From Thermomicrobiales bacterium (GTDB lineage: Bacteria; Chloroflexota; Chloroflexia; Thermomicrobiales; UBA6265), in the NCBI GenBank assembly GCA_020432165.1, contig JAGQGU010000009.1, forward strand, positions 1 to 57,478: DNA of 57,478 nucleotides, read 5' to 3'. Made by a program: the position numbers and the translations under genes. Under the pieces are notes generated by a model. It worked only from the letters and a program-made list of their open reading frames with translations. It searched no databases and was not told the origin of the DNA. Positions within the stretch are counted from its first letter, which is position 1, and each line of letters opens with the position of its first letter. Below, piece after piece: positions 26,930 through 51,830 of the stretch.

Positions 26930-27817
26930 CTAATCGCCGCTGCTACTTTGGCGCTGATAGCTTGCCGTTGTGGCCCGGCTAACATGCCCGAGCGAGGTTT
27001 GGACCTCGCTGAGTGGCACGCCTTGCTCCAGCGAATGCACGGCGAAGCTGTGGCGCAGAATGTGTGGCGAGAAGGCATCGATACCCAGCTTGCTGGCGTA
27101 GCCTTTGAAGAGCAGCCACAAACCCTGGCGGGTCAATCGGGTACCCCGGTGATTCACAAAGACAGCGCTTTCCTCATGATCCGCACCGGTGAGTTCGTTA
27201 CGTCCACCTTCGATATACGCACGCAACGCCTGGGAAGCCGATGGGCGTAGATTCAGCGTGCGATCAAACGCGACCGGGTCAGAAGTGATCACAATGGTGT
27301 CAAACTCCGGCCCAATATCGTCCATATTCAGCGAGAGAAGTTCGCTGGCGCGGATACCGGTGGCATAGAGGATCTCCATCATCGCGCGATCTCGCAGCGA
27401 TTCCGGACGATCATCGTCGCTTGTCGTCGAATCGATGAGCACGCGCACCTGCTGGTGCGTGAGCACCTTGGGATTGCTGCGCGGAACCGAGGGCGGACGC
27501 AGATGCACCACGCCATCGAAGTCGATTGCGCCCTCATCCTGTAGCCACTGAATGAAGATACGTAACGCCGCGACCTTGCGAGCGATGGTGGATTGCACAT
27601 ACTCATATGCATCCAGATCATCCACAAAGGTTTCCAGATGCTCGCCGGTGAGCTTGTCCCAGCGGTCTATTTTGAGGCGCTCGTATCTTTTCTCCGGTGG
27701 TGCCTGTAAAAAGTCGAGAAACTGTATAAGATCGCTTTTGTAAGCGAGCACAGTGTTCTCCGAGGCCTTGCGTTCGTTTCGCAAATAGCTGAGAAACGCG
27801 TCAACCTGAGTGATCAC
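26930..27817 (-). CDS. Tyrosine recombinase (XerC/D-like), atypical
   Basis: 295 residues from GTG 27817, which has GGAAAG 6 bases upstream. An alternative ATG at 27865 has none. The N-terminal SAM-like domain (FLSYLRNERKASENTVLAYK) is typical of Xer proteins. In the catalytic domain, Arg (GIRASELLSL), HxxR (HILRHSFA), His (LGHVS) and the nucleophile Tyr (TTASYQR) are present. The beta-hairpin that normally carries the catalytic Lys (usually a GKG.K stretch) instead reads VITSDPVAFDRTLNL, with no Lys. It may be the chromosome-dimer recombinase of this lineage or an orphan integrase. No att-like repeats were found beside it. Confidence 0.82.
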   Translation of the reverse strand: MITQVDAFLSYLRNERKASENTVLAYKSDLIQFLDFLQAPPEKRYERLKIDRWDKLTGEHLETFVDDLDAYEYVQSTIARKVAALRIFIQWLQDEGAIDFDGVVHLRPPSVPRSNPKVLTHQQVRVLIDSTTSDDDRPESLRDRAMMEILYATGIRASELLSLNMDDIGPEFDTIVITSDPVAFDRTLNLRPSASQALRAYIEGGRNELTGADHEESAVFVNHRGTRLTRQGLWLLFKGYASKLGIDAFSPHILRHSFAVHSLEQGVPLSEVQTSLGHVSRATTASYQRQSSSGD

Positions 27818-27832
27818 GGTCGTCTTTCCTTC

Positions 27833-27861
27833 CGTCGGACAGAACCATCCTTTCCGTCCGA
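27833..27861. promoter_or_regulatory. Inverted repeat before recombinase gene
   Basis: GTCGGAC and GTCCGAC (7 bp arms, 15-base spacer) lie just upstream of the chosen GTG start of the recombinase gene. This could be an operator or a leader hairpin. There is no T-run on the minus strand. Confidence 0.3.
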
Positions 27862-27923
27862 CCATCGTGCGTTTGTTTTACCGGGCAGCCTACCCGGCAA
27901 CGTGCACGAACCTCGAAGGAGAA

Positions 27924-32647: not shown

Positions 32648-32668
32648 CCGACGTCAAGGTGACCGACC
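32648..32668 (+). repeat. Solitary arm of class-B inverted-repeat element
   Basis: CCGACGTCAAGGTGACCGACC directly follows the ispG stop codon. It matches one arm of the four paired elements between 42.7 and 49.1 kb, but no opposite arm follows. Confidence 0.6.
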
Positions 32669-40872: not shown

Positions 40873-42192
40873 CTAGATAACCTTCTTCGATGCCCGCAGC
40901 GTATCTGCCAACTGCAGCATTGGCGCTGTCATGCCCTGATAACTGAGGATAAAGTCCTGAATCCATGGTCCTATTTGCCCGGCGACAACGGCCGGATGAT
41001 GGGCAAAGCCGATATTCCGGGTGATTTCCTCTGGTGTTAGTGCATCATCTCGAGTCGAATTTAGGAGGATGTCGGAGGGGTACTCCAGTACATTCTCGAA
41101 GCTGATGGCTTCCCAGAATCCGCCCTGGCTCGACTCCACTTCCACAAAGTTGACTCCCAGCTGCTTGTAAAACGCCAGGTCTGACCAGTCATCCACTACC
41201 ACGGCGTTCCAGGTATCGTAGACACCGATATAGGTCACCAGTGTTGTGAGATCGGATGCTTCTTCGGCAGCGGCGGTGAGGCCGGCCCGCGCACCCTCGA
41301 AATCGGCCTGGGCCTGAGCGACATTTGGATCATCCTCCGCAATCCCAAGCGCAATCGCCAGTTCATGGAAGCGCTTAAGTCCCGTCTCCGCATCGTATAG
41401 ACCGCTGATAGTCAGGAATGGCACCACATTGTTGACCATTTCGTACTGCTCGTACTCAATGCCGAACTGATACTGGACGTCGCCCGGATCCCAGGTCATG
41501 GTGATATAGATATCAGGCTCGGTGTTCAGCATCGCCTCGATATCAACCAACTCCTGCTCGGCGGTGAGATCTGGCACATCCGGGTCAATATTGCCCATCG
41601 CGGGATTGTCTCGTTGGAGCCCCATGGCAAAGATCGCGACCGGTCGGATGCCGAAATCCCACAGTGGTGCGGCGGCATTGTAGTTGGCGAAGATGCGCTC
41701 AGGTCGTTTGGGCAGCGTCACCGTGACTCCGCGATCATCGGTAAAGGCCCAGGTGCCGTCTGGCTGGACACCATTAGCCGGCACATCTGCCGCGGGACTG
41801 GCCGATGGTGTCTGCGCTGCGGTTGGACGGATACCGGTAGCAACCGCCGTACTAACCACGCCAGCTGTGGCGAGCATTGAACGACGTGAGAGAGTGGAAC
41901 GGAAGAGTGCACGGGGATCACGAGGGTGAACTGACATGGTGGTTGCTCCTTTATGTGTGGGGAGGGGAAGAGAGGGGAGCCCAAGCTCCATACGCGAGTT
42001 GGTGGCGCGGGCGATGCGCTGAATCGTGCTGAGGCGGGGCAAACCCGCACCTCGCTCCATACGGGCGATGGCACTTTGGGTGGTGCTGATCGCCTGGGCG
42101 AGATCGCGCTGTGTCATACCAGCCCGTTTACGCGCGGCGGCGATGGCTCCCGCGATCTGTCGGACCTCGCGCTCGGATTGTGCGTCCTTCAT
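40873..42192 (-). CDS. XRE helix-turn-helix fused in frame to Tat-type iron/siderophore-binding protein
   Basis: 439 residues if read from ATG 42192. Residues of about 5-80 form an XRE/HigA-like HTH (AAARKRAGMTQRDLAQAIST, SAIARMERG, STIQRIARATN). No stop codon follows. At Met86 (ATG 41937) there is a strong internal ribosome-binding site, AAAGGAGC 7 bases upstream. It opens a second protein with a Tat-like signal (LSRRSMLATAGVVSTAVATG), a TPSASP linker and a FecB/periplasmic-binding fold (VTLPKRPERIFANY). The exported part would normally be a separate protein. Either two products arise from one frame, or an ancestral stop was lost. The binding protein lacks permease or ATPase partners nearby. 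Confidence 0.8.
   Translation of the reverse strand: MKDAQSEREVRQIAGAIAAARKRAGMTQRDLAQAISTTQSAIARMERGAGLPRLSTIQRIARATNSRMELGLPSLPLPTHKGATTMSVHPRDPRALFRSTLSRRSMLATAGVVSTAVATGIRPTAAQTPSASPAADVPANGVQPDGTWAFTDDRGVTVTLPKRPERIFANYNAAAPLWDFGIRPVAIFAMGLQRDNPAMGNIDPDVPDLTAEQELVDIEAMLNTEPDIYITMTWDPGDVQYQFGIEYEQYEMVNNVVPFLTISGLYDAETGLKRFHELAIALGIAEDDPNVAQAQADFEGARAGLTAAAEEASDLTTLVTYIGVYDTWNAVVVDDWSDLAFYKQLGVNFVEVESSQGGFWEAISFENVLEYPSDILLNSTRDDALTPEEITRNIGFAHHPAVVAGQIGPWIQDFILSYQGMTAPMLQLADTLRASKKVI
41935..41958 (-). promoter_or_regulatory. Internal ribosome-binding site and start inside fused ORF
   Basis: On the minus strand AAAGGAGC, then AACCACC, then ATG (41937). It is as strong as any gene start in this window, although the reading frame is already open across it. 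It decides that the binding protein can be made without the HTH. Confidence 0.6.
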
Positions 42193-42244
42193 ATCTCCCT
42201 CGATTGGTTGTTTGGCGGATATCACCCGGCCGAGTGGTATCCCT

Positions 42245-42284
42245 GTTCATGAACATTGGCGACATGATATAGCAATACTGCTAT
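42245..42284. promoter_or_regulatory. Two palindromes in divergent intergenic region
   Basis: GTTCATGAAC (42245-42254) and ATAGCA-ATAC-TGCTAT (42269-42284) lie between the HTH fusion gene and the UPF0060 gene. Both are perfect in their arms and could be operators for the XRE-type HTH encoded alongside. Confidence 0.4.
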
Positions 42285-42379
42285 TTCCGACAAATTCAGT
42301 AGGAATATGTATGACGTGCGATGATTGCTATAGTGAACGCAGCATGTGGGATCCCGTTTTGCAGCGAAAGCGTTACCCA

Positions 42380-42724
42380 ATGGATATGGCTACAATCGGG
42401 CGATCGGTGATGCTGTTTGCGTTGGCTGGTCTTTTCGAGATCGCTGGCGGGTATTTTGTCTGGCTATGGCTGCGCGATTCCCGTTCCGCCTGGTTTGGCA
42501 TGCTGGGCGGACTCGTGCTCTTCGTTTACGGGATTCTGCCCACGCTCCAGCCGGAGGAGCTGAACTTCGGCCGCGTTTACGCCGCCTACGGTGGCATGTT
42601 TATTGTGCTTTCGCTGCTCTGGGGCTGGGGTTTCGATGGCCACCGCCCGGACCGTTTCGATATCGTGGGTGGTGTTATCGCATTAGCTGGCGCAGCGATC
42701 ATCGTCTACGCCCCACGTGGATAA
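42380..42724 (+). CDS. UPF0060 (YnfA-like) small membrane protein
   Basis: 114 residues from ATG 42380. Four hydrophobic helices; the opening VMLFALAGLFEIAGGYFVWLWLR and FGRVYAAYGGMFIVLSLLWGW are the family's signature blocks. YnfA-type proteins resemble small multidrug-resistance transporters, but their substrate is not settled. The ribosome-binding site is weak. ATG 42344 is a possible earlier start adding 12 residues. Confidence 0.85.
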   Translation: MDMATIGRSVMLFALAGLFEIAGGYFVWLWLRDSRSAWFGMLGGLVLFVYGILPTLQPEELNFGRVYAAYGGMFIVLSLLWGWGFDGHRPDRFDIVGGVIALAGAAIIVYAPRG

Positions 42725-42747
42725 ACCTGCCATATCCAGGCACAGCC

Positions 42748-42806
42748 GTGACGTCAAGATGACCGACCCTCCGCGTGTACGGTGAGTTGGTCACCTTGTT
42801 GTTCAG
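42748..42806. repeat. Class-B inverted-repeat element, copy 1
   Basis: Left arm GTGACGTCAAGATGACCGAC (42748-42767) and right arm TTGGTCACCTTGTTGTTCAG (42787-42806) are imperfect inverted copies, about 20 bases apart. The right arm overlaps the stop codon of the EamA transporter gene. Confidence 0.7.
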
Positions 42807-43720
42807 GTAGGGGATGCAGCGGTACTGGCTCGGGGCAGGCGATGGTTCGCCAGATTCGCCGTCACGATGCCACCAACCACCAGCGCTACACCAACTCCCG
42901 CGACGAACGGGAGCGATTCTCCGAAAACGGGGACGGCGATGATCGCGACGAGTGCCGGACTCATGGCCCCAACCGTGGCAGCGGTGATCGCACCCAGGCG
43001 ACGAATGCTGATGGTGTAGGCGATGCTGGAGATCACACCGGTACCGATGCCCTGCATGAGCGCAAAGCCCAGGATATCGGATGTCGGTGCGGTCAGGAGG
43101 TTTGAAGCCGTTGCTCCGGAAACAAGCAGCAGCAATGCGGCCATGGCCGAGGGGAGGCAGACCAGGAGCGTCGCCGTAATCGGATCGAGACGGGCGCGCT
43201 GCAATCCGATCGTGTAGACGGCCCAACACAGCGCTGCCAGCATGAGCACCCAGGCACCAGCTATGTGCGTGGAGTGGGCCGATGCTGCCACCATGGCGAA
43301 TAGTCCAGTCAGGATTGCGGCGTAGCCGAGCAGCGATGTAAGCCGAAAGCGTTGGTGGAAGAGAACAAAGCCGATACACGCGACGTAGAGCGGCGGCATA
43401 CCGGGGTTGATCACACCCACAAACGTGGCGCTGGTGAGATCGCCACCGATGGCGGTCAGGAGATAAAAGGGAAGCCCAGCGCCAATGGCGATGAGAAGGC
43501 AGGCAGCGACGGGTGCCTGTCGCACCTGGCGAATAGCCCGCGGGAGGAAGGGCAGGAGTACGACTGTCGGTACGCCAAAGCGGATAACGGCCACATCCAC
43601 GATGGTGAGTTGGGAGAAGGCGATGGCACGCATGGTCAGCGCGAATCCGACCCAGAGGATAACGGTGACGATCATCGCCGACCATCCGGCAATATCCAGG
43701 CTTCTGTGGGTATCCGACAT
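42803..43720 (-). CDS. EamA/DMT-family transporter
   Basis: 305 residues from ATG 43720 (CGGAG, spacing 7). Ten hydrophobic helices in two repeats of five, as in RhaT/RarD-type drug/metabolite exporters. The second EamA half opens at HIAGAWVLMLAALCWAVYTI. It probably exports an amino acid or small metabolite. It lies 72 bases behind the XRE-cupin regulator in the same direction, a frequent arrangement in which the regulator controls its transporter. Confidence 0.88.
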   Translation of the reverse strand: MSDTHRSLDIAGWSAMIVTVILWVGFALTMRAIAFSQLTIVDVAVIRFGVPTVVLLPFLPRAIRQVRQAPVAACLLIAIGAGLPFYLLTAIGGDLTSATFVGVINPGMPPLYVACIGFVLFHQRFRLTSLLGYAAILTGLFAMVAASAHSTHIAGAWVLMLAALCWAVYTIGLQRARLDPITATLLVCLPSAMAALLLLVSGATASNLLTAPTSDILGFALMQGIGTGVISSIAYTISIRRLGAITAATVGAMSPALVAIIAVPVFGESLPFVAGVGVALVVGGIVTANLANHRLPRASTAASPT

Positions 43721-43792
43721 CGTGACACTCCGGTGACGGCAGGAGTTCCTGCCGGGCATTCAACATCCGGAGAGATGTCCTCGATCTGATCT

Positions 43793-44362
43793 CTAGTCCA
43801 CGCGTGCCAGATAGTAGGCACAGAGTTCATCACCGCGATTCTCGAATCGATGCTCGCATTCACCGTCGAATGAGATCGAATCACCGGCATTCAGATCGTA
43901 CTCGGTCCCGTTGATCGTGAGTGTGAGCGTGCCTGTTTCCACCGCGATGTGCTCGCGCGCACCGGGTCGGTGCGAGGGGAAGACACCGGCATCGACATGG
44001 GATGGCATTTCCACCCGCATGTACTCGAACTCAAGCCCTCGAATCGTGGGTGCCAGGCTACGACGTGTCCAGCCCGAAGGATCGGTCACCGTCGGTTGCT
44101 GGCTGTGTCGCAGCACAATCACCTGATCGGTTTCCGGCGGCGAAATGAGATCGACCAATCGTAATCCCAATCCGCGCGCTACCCGATCCAGAACCACGAT
44201 CGTTGGCACCTTACCGCCCGTTTCGATCGCGGAAATCATCGCGCGGCTCACACCGGTTTTGGTGGCGAGTGCCTCCAGTGTGAGATTTTGGCCGATGCGT
44301 TCGTTCCGTAGCCGAATACCGAGGGCTCCGAGATCAACGGCTGAACCATGTGGATCAGTCAA
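43793..44362 (-). CDS. XRE-family regulator with cupin domain
   Basis: 189 residues from TTG 44362 with AGGAG 6 bases upstream. No other in-frame start has a ribosome-binding site. N-terminal HTH (about 12-70: LRNERIGQNLTLEALATKTG, SRAMISAIETGGKVPTI) and C-terminal cupin (about 105-185, HRPGAREHIAVETGTLTLTI). This layout (PuuR-like) senses a small ligand with the cupin pocket and controls a linked enzyme or transporter, here presumably the EamA exporter. The palindrome CACTATAGTG just upstream is a candidate operator. Confidence 0.9.
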   Translation of the reverse strand: MTDPHGSAVDLGALGIRLRNERIGQNLTLEALATKTGVSRAMISAIETGGKVPTIVVLDRVARGLGLRLVDLISPPETDQVIVLRHSQQPTVTDPSGWTRRSLAPTIRGLEFEYMRVEMPSHVDAGVFPSHRPGAREHIAVETGTLTLTINGTEYDLNAGDSISFDGECEHRFENRGDELCAYYLARVD

Positions 44363-44388
44363 GGATTTCTCCTGAAGTAGAATTACAC

Positions 44389-44398
44389 CACTATAGTG
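44389..44398. promoter_or_regulatory. CACTATAGTG palindrome (candidate XRE-cupin operator)
   Basis: Perfect 10-bp palindrome 27 bases upstream of the XRE-cupin start and also upstream of the divergent GH114 gene. An autoregulatory operator is a reasonable guess. Confidence 0.4.
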
Positions 44399-44512
44399 TC
44401 GGATGTCAATGTGCCAGAATGGCGCTAGATGCATTCTACCCGGCGGGTGTCCGCTGGTGGTCCCCATCAAGGTCCTGGAAACATATCTCCTGCACGGAAG
44501 GGGAGGTTGTTG

Positions 44513-45373
44513 GTGCGAATCCTGTCCATAGTCCTCGTGGTATTCGTATTGCTCGGAGCATCCGGTTTGGTCAGCGCGGCGGAGCCTGACACCTGGACGT
44601 TGCCTCCGACCACTGGCGTGCTGGACTATCAGCTGGGCGGCACATACGACACCCTGCCAGATGGCACGCCGATTGATGTGGTCGCGCGGGATGTCACCGC
44701 CTCGCCGCTGGTGGGTGCGTACAACATATGCTATCTCAACGGCTTTCAGACGCAGCCGGAAATGCTCGACCAGTGGCTCGACTTGCCCGTCGATGTGCTG
44801 TTACGCGATAGCAGTGGCGAACCGGTGGCCGATCCTGACTGGCCGGATGAGTACATTCTCGATCCGTCGACGATTGAACAGCAGGAGGCCATCCTGACCA
44901 TGATCGCGCCGCAGATTCGCGCCTGTGCCGAAGCGGGGTTCGATGCGGTCGAGTTCGATAATCTGGACACGTTCCTTCGCTTTCCCGAGCTCGATGCTGA
45001 TGGCGCATTGGTGCTGGCACACAGATACATCGATCTCGCGCACGAGCACAACCTGGCGGTGGCGCAAAAGAACACCGCTGAACTCGCCCATCTCAAGGAA
45101 GATATGCCGATGTTGCTTGTGGATGTGCCCGTCTTCGATTTTGCTGTGGCAGAATCTTGCGCGGTCTACGACGAATGCCAGCTCTACACCGAGGTCTATG
45201 GCGATCACGTCCTTCAGATCGAGTATCCGGACGAGTTAGCGGGTGCCGAAATGACCTTCGCCGATGTCTGCACGATGGAGAACCGCGCACCGTTGGCGAT
45301 CTTGCGCGATCGCAATCTGGTTAGCCCGGACGATGCGGACTATGTGTATGAGGCGTGCTCACCACGCGCGTGA
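44513..45373 (+). CDS. Secreted GH114-family glycoside hydrolase
   Basis: 286 residues from GTG 44513, with GGGGAGG 6 bases upstream. Signal peptide at about 1-22 (ILSIVLVVFVLLGASGLVSA). The TIM-barrel family pattern is clear: GFDAVEFDNLDTF with acidic catalytic residues, NLAVAQKNTAEL, and VFDFAVAESCAVYDECQLY with the conserved Glu and Cys pair. GH114 enzymes cleave alpha-1,4-polygalactosamine of microbial exopolysaccharides. It may act on the biofilm or cell envelope of this or other bacteria. Single gene, divergent from the XRE-cupin regulator. Confidence 0.87.
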   Translation: MRILSIVLVVFVLLGASGLVSAAEPDTWTLPPTTGVLDYQLGGTYDTLPDGTPIDVVARDVTASPLVGAYNICYLNGFQTQPEMLDQWLDLPVDVLLRDSSGEPVADPDWPDEYILDPSTIEQQEAILTMIAPQIRACAEAGFDAVEFDNLDTFLRFPELDADGALVLAHRYIDLAHEHNLAVAQKNTAELAHLKEDMPMLLVDVPVFDFAVAESCAVYDECQLYTEVYGDHVLQIEYPDELAGAEMTFADVCTMENRAPLAILRDRNLVSPDDADYVYEACSPRA

Positions 45374-45424
45374 CCCGATGATGTTTGCCCGTATTGCTCG
45401 TGTGCACCGCTGCCTTGGAGCGTT

Positions 45425-45470
45425 GGCCCGCACTTTACGGGCGGGCAGCCCATGCGCCAAGCATGAGTCT
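45425..45470. repeat. REP-like palindrome after GH114 gene
   Basis: GCCCGC-ACTTTAC-GGGCGGGC (about 45429-45449) lies in the gap between convergent genes. It is the TTTAC/GTAAA-loop type also seen at 3.9, 11.8, 51.3 and 55.2 kb. Confidence 0.6.
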
Positions 45471-45509
45471 GAGTCGGTTACTGGGTGGGAACGCCGTTGC
45501 GCGCGTGTG

Positions 45510-46025
45510 TCATCCCCCATGCGCCAGAATCTGGAGGGAGATCACGATAAAGCCCAGACCCGCCTCCGCGCCAAGCACGATCAGCTTCTGGAGGAAGGTT
45601 AGCTCCAGTTTGCGCACAGCCAGGAAGCCGATACCGACTAACGAGACCAGTAACCAGCCAGCCGACCATTTCAGCGCTGAAACGGCATCCCAATCGGTGA
45701 AATGCGCGATCGCCAGGAGCACGAATGGCACAGTCACCGCACCAACTGCCCCAAATGTGGTTCGCACCATATGCCCGAACTCGGCGCGCGTGGGAAAGGT
45801 CTCGTGCACGACGATGTGAGAGACGACATCCGCCACAAACATGGAGAGCAGCAGACCGAAGACGGTTACGGCCAGCGTCCGCGCCGCCGGCCCGGCCTCG
45901 GCATGACCATGTGTCGTGAGGGCGATCACCACCGCCAACGAGGCGAAGGTGAGGTAGATGCGTTCCTTCAGCGCTGCCGCACGACCCGCGCGCTCGTGTT
46001 CGTCAGGATGAGGATTGGTGTGCAT
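45510..46025 (-). CDS. Membrane protein of unknown function
   Basis: 171 residues from ATG 46025 (AGGAGC close upstream). The His/Asp-rich hydrophilic start MHTNPHPDEHERAG is followed by about five helices, with a HGHAEAG loop after the first and SHIVVHETFPTRAEF in the middle. The histidine-rich loops hint at a metal or proton-linked role. I do not recognise the family. It is convergent with the GH114 gene. Confidence 0.75.
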   Translation of the reverse strand: MHTNPHPDEHERAGRAAALKERIYLTFASLAVVIALTTHGHAEAGPAARTLAVTVFGLLLSMFVADVVSHIVVHETFPTRAEFGHMVRTTFGAVGAVTVPFVLLAIAHFTDWDAVSALKWSAGWLLVSLVGIGFLAVRKLELTFLQKLIVLGAEAGLGFIVISLQILAHGG

Positions 46026-46099
46026 GCGTGCTCCTGAATTGCAGTGGGAGATATAGCTATCGGCATCGTACCATGGCCGATGCCTCCCGCCTGGTGACC

Positions 46100-46167
46100 G
46101 TGACGTCAAGGTGACCGGGGTGACGTAAGGAGAGAAATGCGCCGCCACAACCCGGTCATCTTGATGA
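46100..46167. repeat. Class-B inverted-repeat element, copy 2
   Basis: Left arm GTGACGTCAAGGTGACCGGG (46100-46119) and right arm AACCCGGTCATCTTGATGA (46149-46167), inverted, about 29 bases apart. It sits just behind the stop codon of the helicase-like gene. Confidence 0.72.
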
Positions 46168-46171
46168 GCGG

Positions 46172-47290
46172 CTAGAAGAGTTCCACCTCTCCCGGTTTGG
46201 TGAAAGGGAGTGGCAGTGACCAGTACCAGCGATCCTTAACGCGAATACTCTGCACATTCATCTCCTCCTTTGCACGCCGAAGAATACGCGTGGTGTGACC
46301 TTCGGCAATAGCTGCGGCTTCGATTTCATACGGCCGCTTCATTCCGCCCGCCAAAAACGACTGCAGAAAAGCCTTTGCCTTGTCCCGTTCCTCCGATCCG
46401 GTGGTCGCGGTTTCGCGTGGTTTTCGCCAGCTAAACACATCCTCCAGACTCATCGAACTCGGGCCATGAAATTCCACCGCGCTATCCAGCGGCCGACTAA
46501 AGAGGAGCGGTGTGGGCGCGATAGCGTAGTTTGATTTGCTCACACCCAGCACTTTGCGGGTGGGAAGCTCCTCCTGCTGCATTTCGTCGGGCAATGGCAC
46601 CACCATCCAGACACTGCGCGCGAGGGCAGTGAAGGCCGTGCTCCCGAGCAATCGTTGCATCGATCGTTGATAGGCATCGCTCTTGCCGACATGCATGATC
46701 GCGATGACCGCTACACCGGTTTCCTCCAGCACCTGGATCAGCGGAGCCAGGCTATCTCGCACATCACCTTCGCTATTACGATCGCTGGCGGAGAGGAAGC
46801 TGCTGAGGGGATCGATCACGATCAGTCCGATATCCTGCGTGGTGATCACATGGCGGAGCAGATTGATGTCTGTCACCAGATTGATGGGTCGGTTCGTGAC
46901 GCCATCGGTCGATTTACCCGTGAGGCTGATGATGCGATCAACATCGGCTCCGTGCGCATCCAAACGGGTACGTACCACATGCTCAAGATCGTCTTCAGCA
47001 AGGAGCAGCAGGGTGTTTGTTACCGGCGCCTTCATGCCATCGGGCAGCGTTCCGCCGGTGCTGAAAGCAGCAGCCAACGCCATTGTGATCGTGCTTTTGC
47101 CATCACCGGCGTAGCCGCCCAGGATGGTGAGCATCCCTTTTGGCAGCCAGCCTGGCCAAAGCCAATCGATCTCCCGTGGCTGCACCTGACTGAGGCGAAC
47201 CAGGGTTGGAATTTCGGCGAGGCCGGAGGTAGGCAATTGGGGCAATGCATCGTAGTCGGCGAGTTGGTTAGCGAGTGTGGCGGTTGTCAA
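46172..47290 (-). CDS. RecA-fold ATPase/helicase, RepA-like
   Basis: About 372 residues, start taken at TTG 47290 (AGGAAGG upstream). Walker A GGYAGDGKST lies at about 56-65, then LLLAEDDLEHVVRTRL and Walker B GLIVIDPLSSFLSA. MHVGKSDAYQRSMQRLLGSTAF with sensor residues matches hexameric RepA/DnaB-like replication helicases of plasmids and phages. The C-terminal winged-helix-like part (about 310-372) is FLAGGMKRPYEIEAAAIAEG. It overlaps the CHC2 primase-like gene upstream by 23 bases, so the two form a replication-type module. No integrase or capsid gene is adjacent. Confidence 0.82.
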   Translation of the reverse strand: MTTATLANQLADYDALPQLPTSGLAEIPTLVRLSQVQPREIDWLWPGWLPKGMLTILGGYAGDGKSTITMALAAAFSTGGTLPDGMKAPVTNTLLLLAEDDLEHVVRTRLDAHGADVDRIISLTGKSTDGVTNRPINLVTDINLLRHVITTQDIGLIVIDPLSSFLSASDRNSEGDVRDSLAPLIQVLEETGVAVIAIMHVGKSDAYQRSMQRLLGSTAFTALARSVWMVVPLPDEMQQEELPTRKVLGVSKSNYAIAPTPLLFSRPLDSAVEFHGPSSMSLEDVFSWRKPRETATTGSEERDKAKAFLQSFLAGGMKRPYEIEAAAIAEGHTTRILRRAKEEMNVQSIRVKDRWYWSLPLPFTKPGEVELF

Positions 47291-47870
47291 AGGTGTGTCC
47301 TTCCTGTTCGAGCGCATGGAGCGCATCCATAAATGAACCATTGTTCAGATACCAACGGGTGAGTTCGATCACATCGCCACCGCGCTGACAGCCGAAGCAA
47401 TAGCCAACGTTCTTGATGAGATCGACATGGAAGCTGGGCGAAGAATCGTCGTGGTTTGGTAGAGGGCATCGGCAAATGGCTGCGTGAGGACCGCGCGGAG
47501 TCAGCGTGCAGCCGAGTGATTGCGTGAGAAAGAGATCGATAGGCCATCGTTGTCTGATCCGTTCGATCCTCTCACGACTGTTGCGCAGCTCGCCGCTCTG
47601 CCAGGCAGGTGCCAGTGGATGATGGCGTTGTCCCTCCAGCAGCTTTCGACGCCGAAGAAGTTCCGCCAGAATCACCTCGATCTGATAGCGAAAGTAGGTC
47701 TGGACCACGGTTGACTGACATTCTGGTTCGAGGACCAACCAGCGCTTGACCTCCAGACTGTCTTCCAGTTCGGCCACAGTCATCTGTCGTAGCGATTGTT
47801 CATAAGCGGACCGGGTCAGTCCGAGAGGGTAGCCGGTAAAGATCCGGTCACCGATATCTGGCTCGGGCAT
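47268..47870 (-). CDS. CHC2 zinc-finger protein, primase-like (no catalytic domain)
   Basis: 200 residues. The C-terminal half holds a CHC2 DNA-primase zinc finger: CRCPLPNHDDSSPSFHVD, then YCFGCQRGGDVIEL, giving the Cys-His-Cys-Cys set. The TOPRIM catalytic domain of DnaG is absent, so the protein alone cannot make primers. The N-terminal half (about 1-110) is helical and basic (YFRYQIEVILAELLRRRKLL). It is paired with a RepA-like helicase in an overlapping operon. It probably recognises DNA for that helicase in a mobile or phage-derived unit. Confidence 0.8.
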   Translation of the reverse strand: MPEPDIGDRIFTGYPLGLTRSAYEQSLRQMTVAELEDSLEVKRWLVLEPECQSTVVQTYFRYQIEVILAELLRRRKLLEGQRHHPLAPAWQSGELRNSRERIERIRQRWPIDLFLTQSLGCTLTPRGPHAAICRCPLPNHDDSSPSFHVDLIKNVGYCFGCQRGGDVIELTRWYLNNGSFMDALHALEQEGHTFDNRHTR

Positions 47871-47964
47871 GGGCGTGCTCCCTGGTTATGTGGGGTGGCT
47901 ATCGCGCGGATATGCGATAGAGAACATATGTTCTGCTATCTATACGCATTGAGCGAAAATTTTC

Positions 47965-48030
47965 TGCCAAGATGACCGGGGTTAGATAGGAGAGGGGGTG
48001 TTACGAGGAAGGTCGGTCATGTTGGCGTGG
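47965..48030. repeat. Class-B inverted-repeat element, copy 3
   Basis: Left arm TGCCAAGATGACCGGGGTT (47965-47983) and right arm AAGGTCGGTCATGTTGGCG (48009-48027), inverted and imperfect. It lies in the 280-base gap between the CHC2 gene and the DUF3800 gene. The rest of that gap is AT-richer and shows nothing else I can name. Confidence 0.68.
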
Positions 48031-48150
48031 ATGGTACGATTCCTAAATGTGCGAATGTGAGCAGGTATCTACTGGATTGTGGAAGTACTTCTAGAAAGAT
48101 CGCCTTCCAAATCGATAGTTGGCAAATATGTCGCGATTGGGTGAACTGAG

Positions 48151-48894
48151 GTGAAGGTTCTGTTCCTGGACGAATCTGGTGATCATAACCTCCGCAGGAT
48201 TGACCCAGCTTACCCAGTTTTTGTTCTGGGCGGCATTGTGGTGGACCGCTCATATCTTCATCACACGCTAACTCCAGCGGTTGACTCCTTCAAGAAGCAG
48301 TATTTTGATACCACTGACGTTATCTTCCACACATCGGATATTGTTCGCGCCAGGGGTGAGTTTTCGTATTTGGCGGACCCAGAAATCAGAGACACCTTCA
48401 TGCATGGGCTCAATCGCCTGGTTGCCGAAGCCGATGTGCGGGTGATGGCCTGTGTTATTGATAAACAAGCGCATGTTGACCAGTACGGTGATTTTGAGTT
48501 TGATCCCTATGATCTGGCACTAGAGGTCTTGATCGAGCGGTTTGTTAGAGAAATCGGACCCACATCACATGGAGGCATTATCGTTGCCGAACGTCGAGGT
48601 TCCGTTCTGGATGCTGCTATCGAGAGAGCCTGGGTTAACCTTTGCCGAACTGGTACCGATCGTGTATCTGCCACCAGGCTCAGTGACCGCATAGTTGATT
48701 TGGTGCTCAGAGATAAGAGGGCAAATATCGCCGGTCTTCAGCTCGCTGATCTAGTGGTGAGTCCGATTGCTCGACACGCTTTGGGAAAGCCGCCGAAAGA
48801 AGACTGGAGGATTGTGGAGTCCAAGCTATGTAGACGGGAATCAGGCAAATATGACGGACACGGGTTGGTGATATTGCCCAAAAAGAGAGGGTAA
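48151..48894 (+). CDS. DUF3800 domain protein
   Basis: 247 residues from GTG 48151 with a weak ribosome-binding site. It starts VLFLDESGDHNL, the DUF3800 hallmark with an acidic pair like RNase H-fold enzymes, and ends with IAGLQLADLVVSPIARHALG, the family's second conserved block. DUF3800 proteins are often found near defence or mobile elements, and an RNase H-like nuclease role has been proposed but not proven here. Base composition is visibly more AT-rich than the neighbours, suggesting transfer. It is bracketed by class-B elements at 47.97 and 49.0 kb. Confidence 0.85.
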   Translation: MKVLFLDESGDHNLRRIDPAYPVFVLGGIVVDRSYLHHTLTPAVDSFKKQYFDTTDVIFHTSDIVRARGEFSYLADPEIRDTFMHGLNRLVAEADVRVMACVIDKQAHVDQYGDFEFDPYDLALEVLIERFVREIGPTSHGGIIVAERRGSVLDAAIERAWVNLCRTGTDRVSATRLSDRIVDLVLRDKRANIAGLQLADLVVSPIARHALGKPPKEDWRIVESKLCRRESGKYDGHGLVILPKKRG

Positions 48895-49004
48895 GAGCCC
48901 CGCTTCGCAGTGCATCTTACCCTCAACAGGCCCTGCGTTTGCTGAGCCCGTCTCGCCAGTCGCGCTGGCAAGCTTCATGCTTAGGCTAACAACCGTGGAG
49001 GCCG

Positions 49005-49072
49005 GTGTCAACATGACCGACCCATTCCATGGCACCCCTCCCACCCGGAACCCCGGTCATCTTGACGTCGAC
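49005..49072. repeat. Class-B inverted-repeat element, copy 4
   Basis: Left arm GTGTCAACATGACCGACCC (49005-49023) and right arm CCCCGGTCATCTTGACGTCG (49051-49070), inverted. It lies between the DUF3800 gene and the broken LLM oxidoreductase gene. Together with copy 3 it brackets the DUF3800 gene. Confidence 0.7.
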
Positions 49073-51089: not shown

Positions 51090-51130
51090 ATAGAGAATTT
51101 CGCCGTTACTGTCAAGATTGAGACGGTGGA

Positions 51131-51139
51131 TGCTACAAT
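51131..51139 (+). promoter_or_regulatory. Extended -10 promoter of ileS leader
   Basis: TGCTACAAT (51131-51139) fits TGnTATAAT. No good -35 is at the usual distance, which an extended -10 does not need. It would start the T-box transcript near 51146. Confidence 0.45.
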
Positions 51140-51475
51140 ATCGGCTGGAATCATCGGGGGATCAACCCGATGTGACCTACATATGGCGTTGAACGAGACA
51201 GCGCCCACGTAGCGGAATCGCACAGCCAGTCCGGGATGATGAGAGCCGGGCCGCCAGCCGTTCGTGGGAGATCACTCCGGAGCCGCGACCTGAACCGCCC
51301 ATTCGTAGCCCGTGCTTCATGCACGGGTGACCCGCACGTAAAGTGCGGGCGTACGCTAAGTGGGTGACGAAGTAAGGAAGCCGGGATTCCGATCCGATAT
51401 TCGGTTTCAAGTGGGTCATTTTCACGATGATCAATTGAGGTGGTACCGCGGGCTTGCTCGTCCTCTATGTGGGGG
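51140..51475 (+). ncRNA. T-box riboswitch of ileS, interrupted by REP repeats
   Basis: The T-box core GAGGTGGTACCGCG (51437-51450) is almost the consensus AGGGTGGNACCGCG. GAGG pairs with the CCTC at 51462-51465 to form the antiterminator/antisequestrator, leaving the TGGT bulge that reads the NCCA end of uncharged tRNA. Upstream, GGCTG (51143-51147) can pair with CAGCC (about 51224-51228) as the base of stem I. AATC at 51216-51219 offers the Ile codon ATC as specifier. Between stem I and the core lies a REP hairpin pair (51305-51354). No canonical terminator follows, so control could be translational or act over a distance. Confidence 0.85.
51305..51354. repeat. REP hairpin pair inside the T-box leader
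   Basis: GTAG + CCCGTGC-TTCAT-GCACGGG (51305-51327) is followed by CCCGCAC-GTAAA-GTGCGGG (51331-51349) and CGTAC. It splits the riboswitch between stem I and the antiterminator. Matching palindromes stand alone at 11.8, 45.4 and 55.2 kb. Confidence 0.8.
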
Positions 51476-51490
51476 CGGGCCGTCAGTCCT

Positions 51491-51830
51491 GCGCGTAGCG
51501 CAGGATCCCCCGAGTAGCCATAGGCCGGTCTAGGTGACGAAGATTCGGTAGAGGAGGAGCTTGTCTCCTCCGGGGGCAGCTCGTCTGCCCCGCTACCAAT
51601 TGACCTCCGGGCTCAACCCGGGGGCTACGGATGAATACGATGATTGAACCCCCGGGCTTAACCCGGGGGCCACGTCCCCGGGGATAAGGGCAGCAAGCTG
51701 CCACCTTCGGTACCCCCGGGGCTACGGATGAGACGATGAGGATTCGGTAGAGGAGGAGCTTGTCTCCTCCAGGGGCAGACGAGCTGCCCCGCTACCAATT
51801 GACCCCCGGGCTCTACCCGGGGCTACGAAT
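51491..51830. repeat. REP cluster with a ~100-bp direct duplication before ileS
   Basis: The 365 bases between T-box and ileS are almost entirely hairpins: TCCTGCGC-GTA-GCGCAGGA (about 51487-51505); GGAGGAG-CTTGT-CTCCTCC (51554-51572); GGGGCAG/CTGCCCC + CTACC; and CCGGG...CCCGG types. The block from about 51541 to 51625 is repeated from about 51741 to 51830 with small changes (loop CTCGT in one becomes ACGAG in the other). No reading frame or promoter is evident within it. Confidence 0.8.

Follow-up and report, generated by a model that had tools for sequence, protein, structure and literature searches.

DUF3800, a predicted RNase H-fold nuclease gene with a putative convergent hairpin RNA, beside a CHC2-RepA-like gene pair in a Thermomicrobiales bacterium

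Several RNA motifs associated with DUF3800 genes (Rfam DUF3800-I, DUF3800-IX and others) were reportedly described by Weinberg et al. in 2017. A DUF3800 gene is also present in a 57,478-nucleotide stretch of a Thermomicrobiales bacterium (GenBank assembly GCA_020432165.1, contig JAGQGU010000009.1, positions 1 to 57,478; hereafter the window), beside genes encoding a CHC2 zinc-finger protein and a RepA-like helicase. This suspected three-gene system is two unrelated modules lying side by side: module A (CHC2 and the RepA-like helicase) and module B (DUF3800 and a predicted hairpin RNA). A link between conserved structured RNAs and adjoining DUF3800 genes has been noted (PMC10910872), and such families are present in Rfam (PMC11701678). 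The RNA of module B resembles them as a structured RNA adjoining DUF3800, but neither the window nor the relatives searched gave a match of it to any Rfam 15 family, whether gathering scores or permissive E-values were applied. Its orientation, promoter, terminator and orphan viral copies could, moreover, be resolved.

DUF3800 has been described as an RNase H fold and as an accessory of CRISPR loci (PMC10910872, PMC12669027). The TPR-DUF3800 accessory of Cas12a2 and type VI-F loci belongs to the same RNase H-fold family (same sources), whereas the present locus, where neither a Cas gene nor a TPR domain or CRISPR array was noticed, encodes a compact protein with its own RNA. The type III toxin-antitoxin systems (ToxIN, CptIN and TenpIN) likewise pair a nuclease with a small structured RNA. 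The fold of ToxN is MazF-like, whereas that of DUF3800 is predicted to be RNase HII-like. The type III RNA consists of tandem repeats located upstream and read in the same direction as the protein gene, whereas the present RNA is downstream, convergent and usually single. Given these differences in protein fold and in the position and copy number of the RNA, the DUF3800-RNA locus is formally not a type III toxin-antitoxin system, though it is like one. An RNA mimic acting against ToxIN, pseudo-ToxI, is carried by phage PhiTE (PMC3475682), which sets a precedent for mimicry of such RNAs by phages.

The DUF3800 gene and its convergent hairpin RNA

The DUF3800 gene (48151..48894, plus strand) encodes a protein of 247 amino acids containing a D7-E8-S-G motif. 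Its Pfam match (PF12686, E = 4e-15) passes the gathering score (57.1 bits vs 21). RNase HII carries a D-E-A-G motif, to which D7-E8-S-G is similar. The AlphaFold2 model, built from 65 sequences, has a predicted local distance difference test score (pLDDT) of 93.5, and its closest match in the PDB is the RNase HII structure 1eke (probability 0.99, E = 0.0098, template modelling score of about 0.5). In the 65-sequence alignment D7, E8, E129 and E147 are invariant and D200 is nearly so. Both features that define RNase H-fold nucleases, the fold and the acidic active site, are therefore found in the predicted structure and the alignment, and the protein is predicted to be an RNase HII-like nuclease that cuts RNA or DNA.

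The gene was described beforehand as AT-rich, which holds: its G+C content at third codon positions (GC3) is 0.51, vs 0.76 for ileS, and its overall GC content is 7.6 points under that of the 30-45 kb stretch of the window. Among relatives, GC content is below that of the flanks in 50 of 60 loci, and phyla are intermixed in the DUF3800 tree. Mixed phyla and low GC suggest horizontal transfer of DUF3800, which is counted in favour of the reading proposed below.

A small RNA gene, not previously annotated, is predicted at 48880..48977 on the minus strand, convergent with DUF3800, on the basis of folding and a family motif. It ends in a hairpin with a conserved apical loop (48887-48924) and a U-tract (48880-48886). 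Two extra 5' hairpins, present in this genus, make the window RNA longer than the family form. Folding z-scores in the window are -4.6 for a 117-nt region and -4.9 for the hairpin. A sigma-70 promoter is predicted at 48983..49011 on the same strand (TTGACA at 49006-49011, a 17-nt spacer and a weak -10 box, TAGCCT, at 48983-48988). The sequence past the DUF3800 stop codon is 86% identical over 111 nt to that of contig L046 of Thermomicrobiales ACE_NR_CHLO14 (genome G003), conserved like a gene.

Relatives of DUF3800 were gathered from 80 loci in many phyla. The motif CCGCTACGCAGT was found past the stop codon with at most one mismatch in 64 loci, and with three mismatches in one further locus. 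On the opposite strand, CCGCTACGCAGT is the apical part of a hairpin, GGCUGGUC A CUGC GUA GCGG G GGCUGGCC, followed by Us. Read on the minus strand, 97.7% of stem cells are paired (48 distinct sequences), two-sided changes occur in all 8 of the 8 lower-stem pairs, and shifting the pairing partners by one position cuts pairing to about half. Read on the plus strand, only 73.4% of stem cells pair, because U-G pairs become A-C. The hexamers TTGACA and TATAAT are information peaks on the minus strand, the -10 box ends 16-18 nt ahead of the core in 38 of 65 loci, and the ten bases past the stem are 64% T on the minus strand vs 29% on the plus strand. An RNA on the plus strand was thus ruled out by the pairing, promoter and U-tract tests. 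Promoter position and U-tract indicate that the RNA runs from the hairpin base to just past the hairpin; given the fixed distance from promoter to hairpin, the transcript should comprise little besides the hairpin. The RNA is single in most loci, where it is downstream of DUF3800 and convergent with it, and in rarer relatives the apical loop is altered while the ACUG/CGGG stem is retained.

The RNA model R1 gave a match at the 3' end of DUF3800, in convergent orientation, in 60 of the 63 main-clade loci searched. A sample of 400 genomes of the phylum, searched with strict filters, contained seven genomes with matches, and in five of these the match is at a DUF3800 stop codon. R1 gave no match in 12 DUF3800 loci that are more distant, where other hairpins occupy the same place. 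Other conserved hairpins were also observed past the stop codons of distant DUF3800 genes (L280-L293 and L302-L305, including plasmid copies and Pseudomonas phage JBD68), several of them carrying CCGACCGGGGACACCCCAATCC-like sequence; this suggests further RNA classes. The known Rfam family BjrC68 gave a weak match at one distant DUF3800 locus (L101), but this match could not be repeated in the plasmids of rhizobia and methylobacteria that were examined.

The neighbourhoods of the 80 loci were scanned mainly for immediate neighbours, and HsdR and HsdS were assigned by homology to a few seeds. The gene hsdR comes directly after DUF3800, at a distance of about 80-290 bp, in 13 of 85 loci, including the near-duplicate pair L210/L211, and within 1.3 kb of it in one more; hsdS is upstream in nine loci. 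These hsd-linked loci span several classes and phyla. Other neighbours of DUF3800 include methylases of the DUF1156 and MmeI types. The gene of the anticodon nuclease PrrC likewise lies within a type I restriction locus (PMC12707154), and the 13 loci with hsdR directly behind DUF3800, though not the window locus, which has no hsd genes, resemble those of the type I restriction guardians PrrC and RloC in this respect. DUF3800, however, has no ABC-ATPase or anticodon nuclease domain and is accompanied by an RNA gene.

A 21-base pattern around the RNA core was found in 16 IMG/VR contigs, whereas the reversed pattern was found in none. No DUF3800 match was detected in these 16 contigs, which represent about eight independent contexts. 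In ten viral representatives 34 of the 40 stem positions that are free of pattern constraint are paired (P = 8e-10), and the RNA model aligns all 16 copies with 99.1% paired cells. Six of the contigs form one family, in which the hairpin comes directly at the end of a predicted outer-membrane protein gene. GenBank phages gave orphan-RNA matches of low significance only, which were not used. What the sequences themselves show is the RNA with its strand and structure, the link between it and DUF3800, its place within type I restriction operons of other genomes, and the orphan viral copies.

Proposed mechanism and alternative readings

The simplest account of a nuclease, an RNA linked to it in cells, restriction genes as neighbours and viral copies of the RNA alone is that the RNA restrains the nuclease and the phage copies maintain the restraint. 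Module B would thus be a two-part locus, in which a small hairpin RNA is transcribed towards the gene of an RNase H-fold nuclease from its own promoter just past the stop codon. The RNA would bind the nuclease through the invariant apical hairpin (CUGC-GUA-GCGG) and hold it inactive. When synthesis or stability of the RNA falls, or when infection brings an attack on a partner restriction system, the nuclease would be freed and growth would stop; phages with their own copy of the RNA would escape by keeping the nuclease restrained. We infer the binding, the inhibition, the substrate and the defence function of the DUF3800-RNA pair. For the block as a whole, the combination of a domesticated replication pair (module A) with a nuclease restrained by a hairpin RNA and countered by phage RNA copies (module B) is given an even chance. 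The broader proposal is a widespread RNA-controlled defence nuclease, in which a convergent hairpin RNA of about 40 nt restrains DUF3800, often within type I restriction operons, and phage orphan copies serve as antidotes; this is held tentatively, at somewhat under an even chance.

Several observations weigh against this proposal. The top PDB match for DUF3800 reaches only E = 0.01. The window RNA diverges from its relatives, scoring 29.9 bits vs 40-53 for most and having the loop GAA in place of GUA; its promoter assignment is weak, as is the -10 box, and no restriction genes adjoin the DUF3800 gene of the window. In two of the seven phylum genomes with matches the RNA is present without a nearby DUF3800 gene: one has a strong copy of 42.6 bits (L298, G165:C324), with no DUF3800 within 1 kb, and the other has two weak matches of about 27 bits. 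The L298 copy possibly belongs to a provirus or marks the loss of a nuclease gene. The viral labels are IMG/VR predictions, and contigs L306 and L310 stop so close to the RNA that a DUF3800 gene next to it could have been cut off; at least 14 of the 16 are thus without one. The convergent RNA could, finally, act on the DUF3800 mRNA instead of on the protein.

This last point leads to an alternative in which the RNA acts in cis, as a convergent antisense transcript with a bidirectional terminator that limits DUF3800 mRNA without binding the protein. The convergent orientation, the overlap with the 3' end of DUF3800 and the terminator anatomy are consistent with such control. Antisense control, however, needs neither internal pairing of the RNA nor an identical 12-nt apical sequence across phyla whose genes are 40-55% identical, and viral orphan copies have no adjoining DUF3800 mRNA to regulate. 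Action in cis is considered rather unlikely.

The RNA may also be a cofactor or guide rather than an inhibitor, with DUF3800 using the hairpin as a scaffold in the manner of TnpB, an RNase H-like RuvC nuclease that uses an RNA from its own 3' end. The RNase H fold, the location of the RNA at the 3' end of the gene, and an invariant apical stem above a variable lower stem all fit. In TnpB/omega-RNA systems, however, the RNA shares the strand of the nuclease gene, whose 3' end it covers, and the guide lies beyond the element, whereas the present RNA is on the opposite strand, is about 40 nt long and ends at the U-tract of its terminator, with no variable guide segment past the hairpin. Orphan phage copies are also easier to explain as decoys, and a role as cofactor or guide is doubtful.

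A single three-gene unit, either a satellite or plasmid remnant or one defence system of CHC2, RepA and DUF3800, is very improbable. The same three genes are present in the same order in ACE_NR_CHLO14, a second species, with the repeats at the same positions and in the same place near ileS, and window positions 46170-48995 are 71% identical to L046 at the nucleotide level. The ratios of nonsynonymous to synonymous substitution (dN/dS) are 0.13 for RepA, 0.22 for CHC2 and 0.054 for DUF3800, compared with 0.083 for ileS, so that all three genes are under constraint. The triple was, however, not found outside these two genomes among 61 genomes of the order and the phylum sample (about 450 in all), although its two halves occur widely and separately. 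The recurrence check suggested by the preliminary description thus turned out negative beyond the window and ACE_NR_CHLO14, and since the triple is confined to two of these roughly 450 genomes the block is not one three-gene system. In other phyla, DUF3800 loci often adjoin restriction genes and not a CHC2-RepA pair, a pair that was not tested for at each locus. A compact system of possible defence role, as suspected earlier, accordingly fits DUF3800 and its RNA but not the three genes together. In the congener G001 (contig L056), plsC and a luciferase-like gene are almost adjacent and the 8-kb stretch between them (window 40873-49072) is absent, and the stretch is therefore variable.

That the hairpin is merely a conserved strong intrinsic terminator and the viral copies ordinary terminators is very improbable: the GC-rich stem, the U-tract and the location directly 3' of the outer-membrane protein gene in the six related viral contigs would fit, but conservation of 12 nt of apical sequence and of the apical pairs from phylum to phylum is not a property of terminators, and the distance from promoter to hairpin is fixed.

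The CHC2-RepA pair, the repeats and the surrounding stretch

Pfam searches confirmed the three genes of the preliminary description at their positions, with CHC2 and RepA divergent from DUF3800. The CHC2 gene (47268..47870, minus strand) is the first of the pair and overlaps the second, encoding the RepA-like helicase/ATPase (46172..47341, minus strand), by 74 bases. CHC2 matches Zn_ribbon_DnaG (E = 1.6e-11) and, as had been claimed, contains no TOPRIM domain. Its structure model consists of a DnaG-like zinc-binding domain (1d0q, E = 4e-5) and an all-helical N-terminus, and no polymerase fold was found in it. A hidden primase was therefore rejected, as the model holds zinc ribbon and helices only. 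The zinc ligands C-x4-H...C-x2-C are kept in most relatives. The RepA-like protein matches AAA_25 (E = 1e-31) and, weakly, RSF1010 RepA (1g8y, E = 0.006), and also resembles phage replication proteins. The pair is like the RSF1010 RepA and phage primase-helicase modules in combining an AAA_25 RepA-type helicase with a CHC2 primase zinc finger, but it is split into two small genes without a primase catalytic domain and has no RepB, RepC or initiator nearby.

In the order, standalone CHC2 genes recur with a helicase-like gene, RepA-type or other, that comes next and overlaps or adjoins them. Related pairs are accompanied by small HTH_17 excisionase-like genes, TubC_N-like genes and serine recombinases. 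An integrative element at L144 1991-9820 contains a serine recombinase, an XRE regulator, a TubC_N-like gene, RepA, CHC2 and an HTH_17 excisionase; no capsid gene was noticed in the stretch of it that was read. A recombinase also accompanies the related pair in L135. CHC2-RepA is probably the replication pair of Thermomicrobiota integrative elements. The excisionase and integrase that accompany the L144 pair are not near the window block, where the pair alone is present. No integrase, excisionase, tested terminase relative or tRNA was found near the block, and the sole tyrosine recombinase detected, at 26930-27865, is probably Xer-like and lies 18 kb from it, so the reported absence of an integrase stands. 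The window pair is most simply a domesticated replication module, which would have lost its integrase and excisionase and afterwards been retained by the chromosome; its present job, at a guess, is helicase loading with the host primase. The earlier idea of an integrated-element remnant thus fits the origin of this pair, in view of the related pairs in integrative elements, but not its state, as its dN/dS values show no decay. Codon use was compared by means of GC3, the GC content of the flanks and a coding score for which ileS was the main training gene, and the gene caller based on this score passes over both CHC2 and DUF3800.

Three palindrome-ended repeat units of about 60 bp are present. 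Unit C1 (46102..46170) is at the RepA stop codon, with a matching intergenic place at L046 3369-3417; C2 (47966..48026) is in the divergent region between CHC2 and DUF3800, with a matching place at L046 5249-5341; and C3 (49003..49070), in the orientation opposite to C2, is downstream of DUF3800, where G003 has units at L046 6488-6590. The -35 box of the RNA promoter overlaps C3 in the window, but no such overlap occurs in L046. The half-site GYCAASRTGACCG has 11 sites in the window genome, eight of them on this contig (control, one in the genome), and 26 matches in ACE_NR_CHLO14 (control, none), near Fic, ParB-like and MmeI-like genes (L046, L090 and L091). The units said to punctuate the block are real, but they are not exclusive to it, because single half-sites also occur at window positions 32653 and 42753. 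On account of these sites and those near the Fic, ParB-like and MmeI-like genes, the repeats look like a low-copy palindromic repeat family, as judged from sequence. Integron attC-like sites or element borders were rejected, since attC ends were unmatched by eye and sites occur elsewhere too. The repeats were also ruled out as part of the DUF3800 RNA, because in other phyla the RNA is found at loci whose surrounding sequence differs.

Further features were observed around the block. A 45-nt inverted pair (45419-45463 and 51313-51357) flanks part of the accessory stretch and its neighbours. Upstream of ileS, L046 8030-8225 (plus strand) gave a T-box leader-like match (Rfam RF00230, 73 bits, below the gathering score of 93), to which window positions 51128-51535 are homologous, and an 88-nt direct repeat is present upstream of ileS at window positions 51536-51822.

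Meaning for the DUF3800 family

DUF3800 has previously been tied to unexplained RNAs and to CRISPR accessories, and no function was assigned to it. The fixed strand, promoter, terminator, invariant loop, restriction neighbours and phage orphans make its function directly testable. If the proposed reading is true, DUF3800 and its hairpin RNA would be a new RNA-based pair of defence and counter-defence, found in many phyla.

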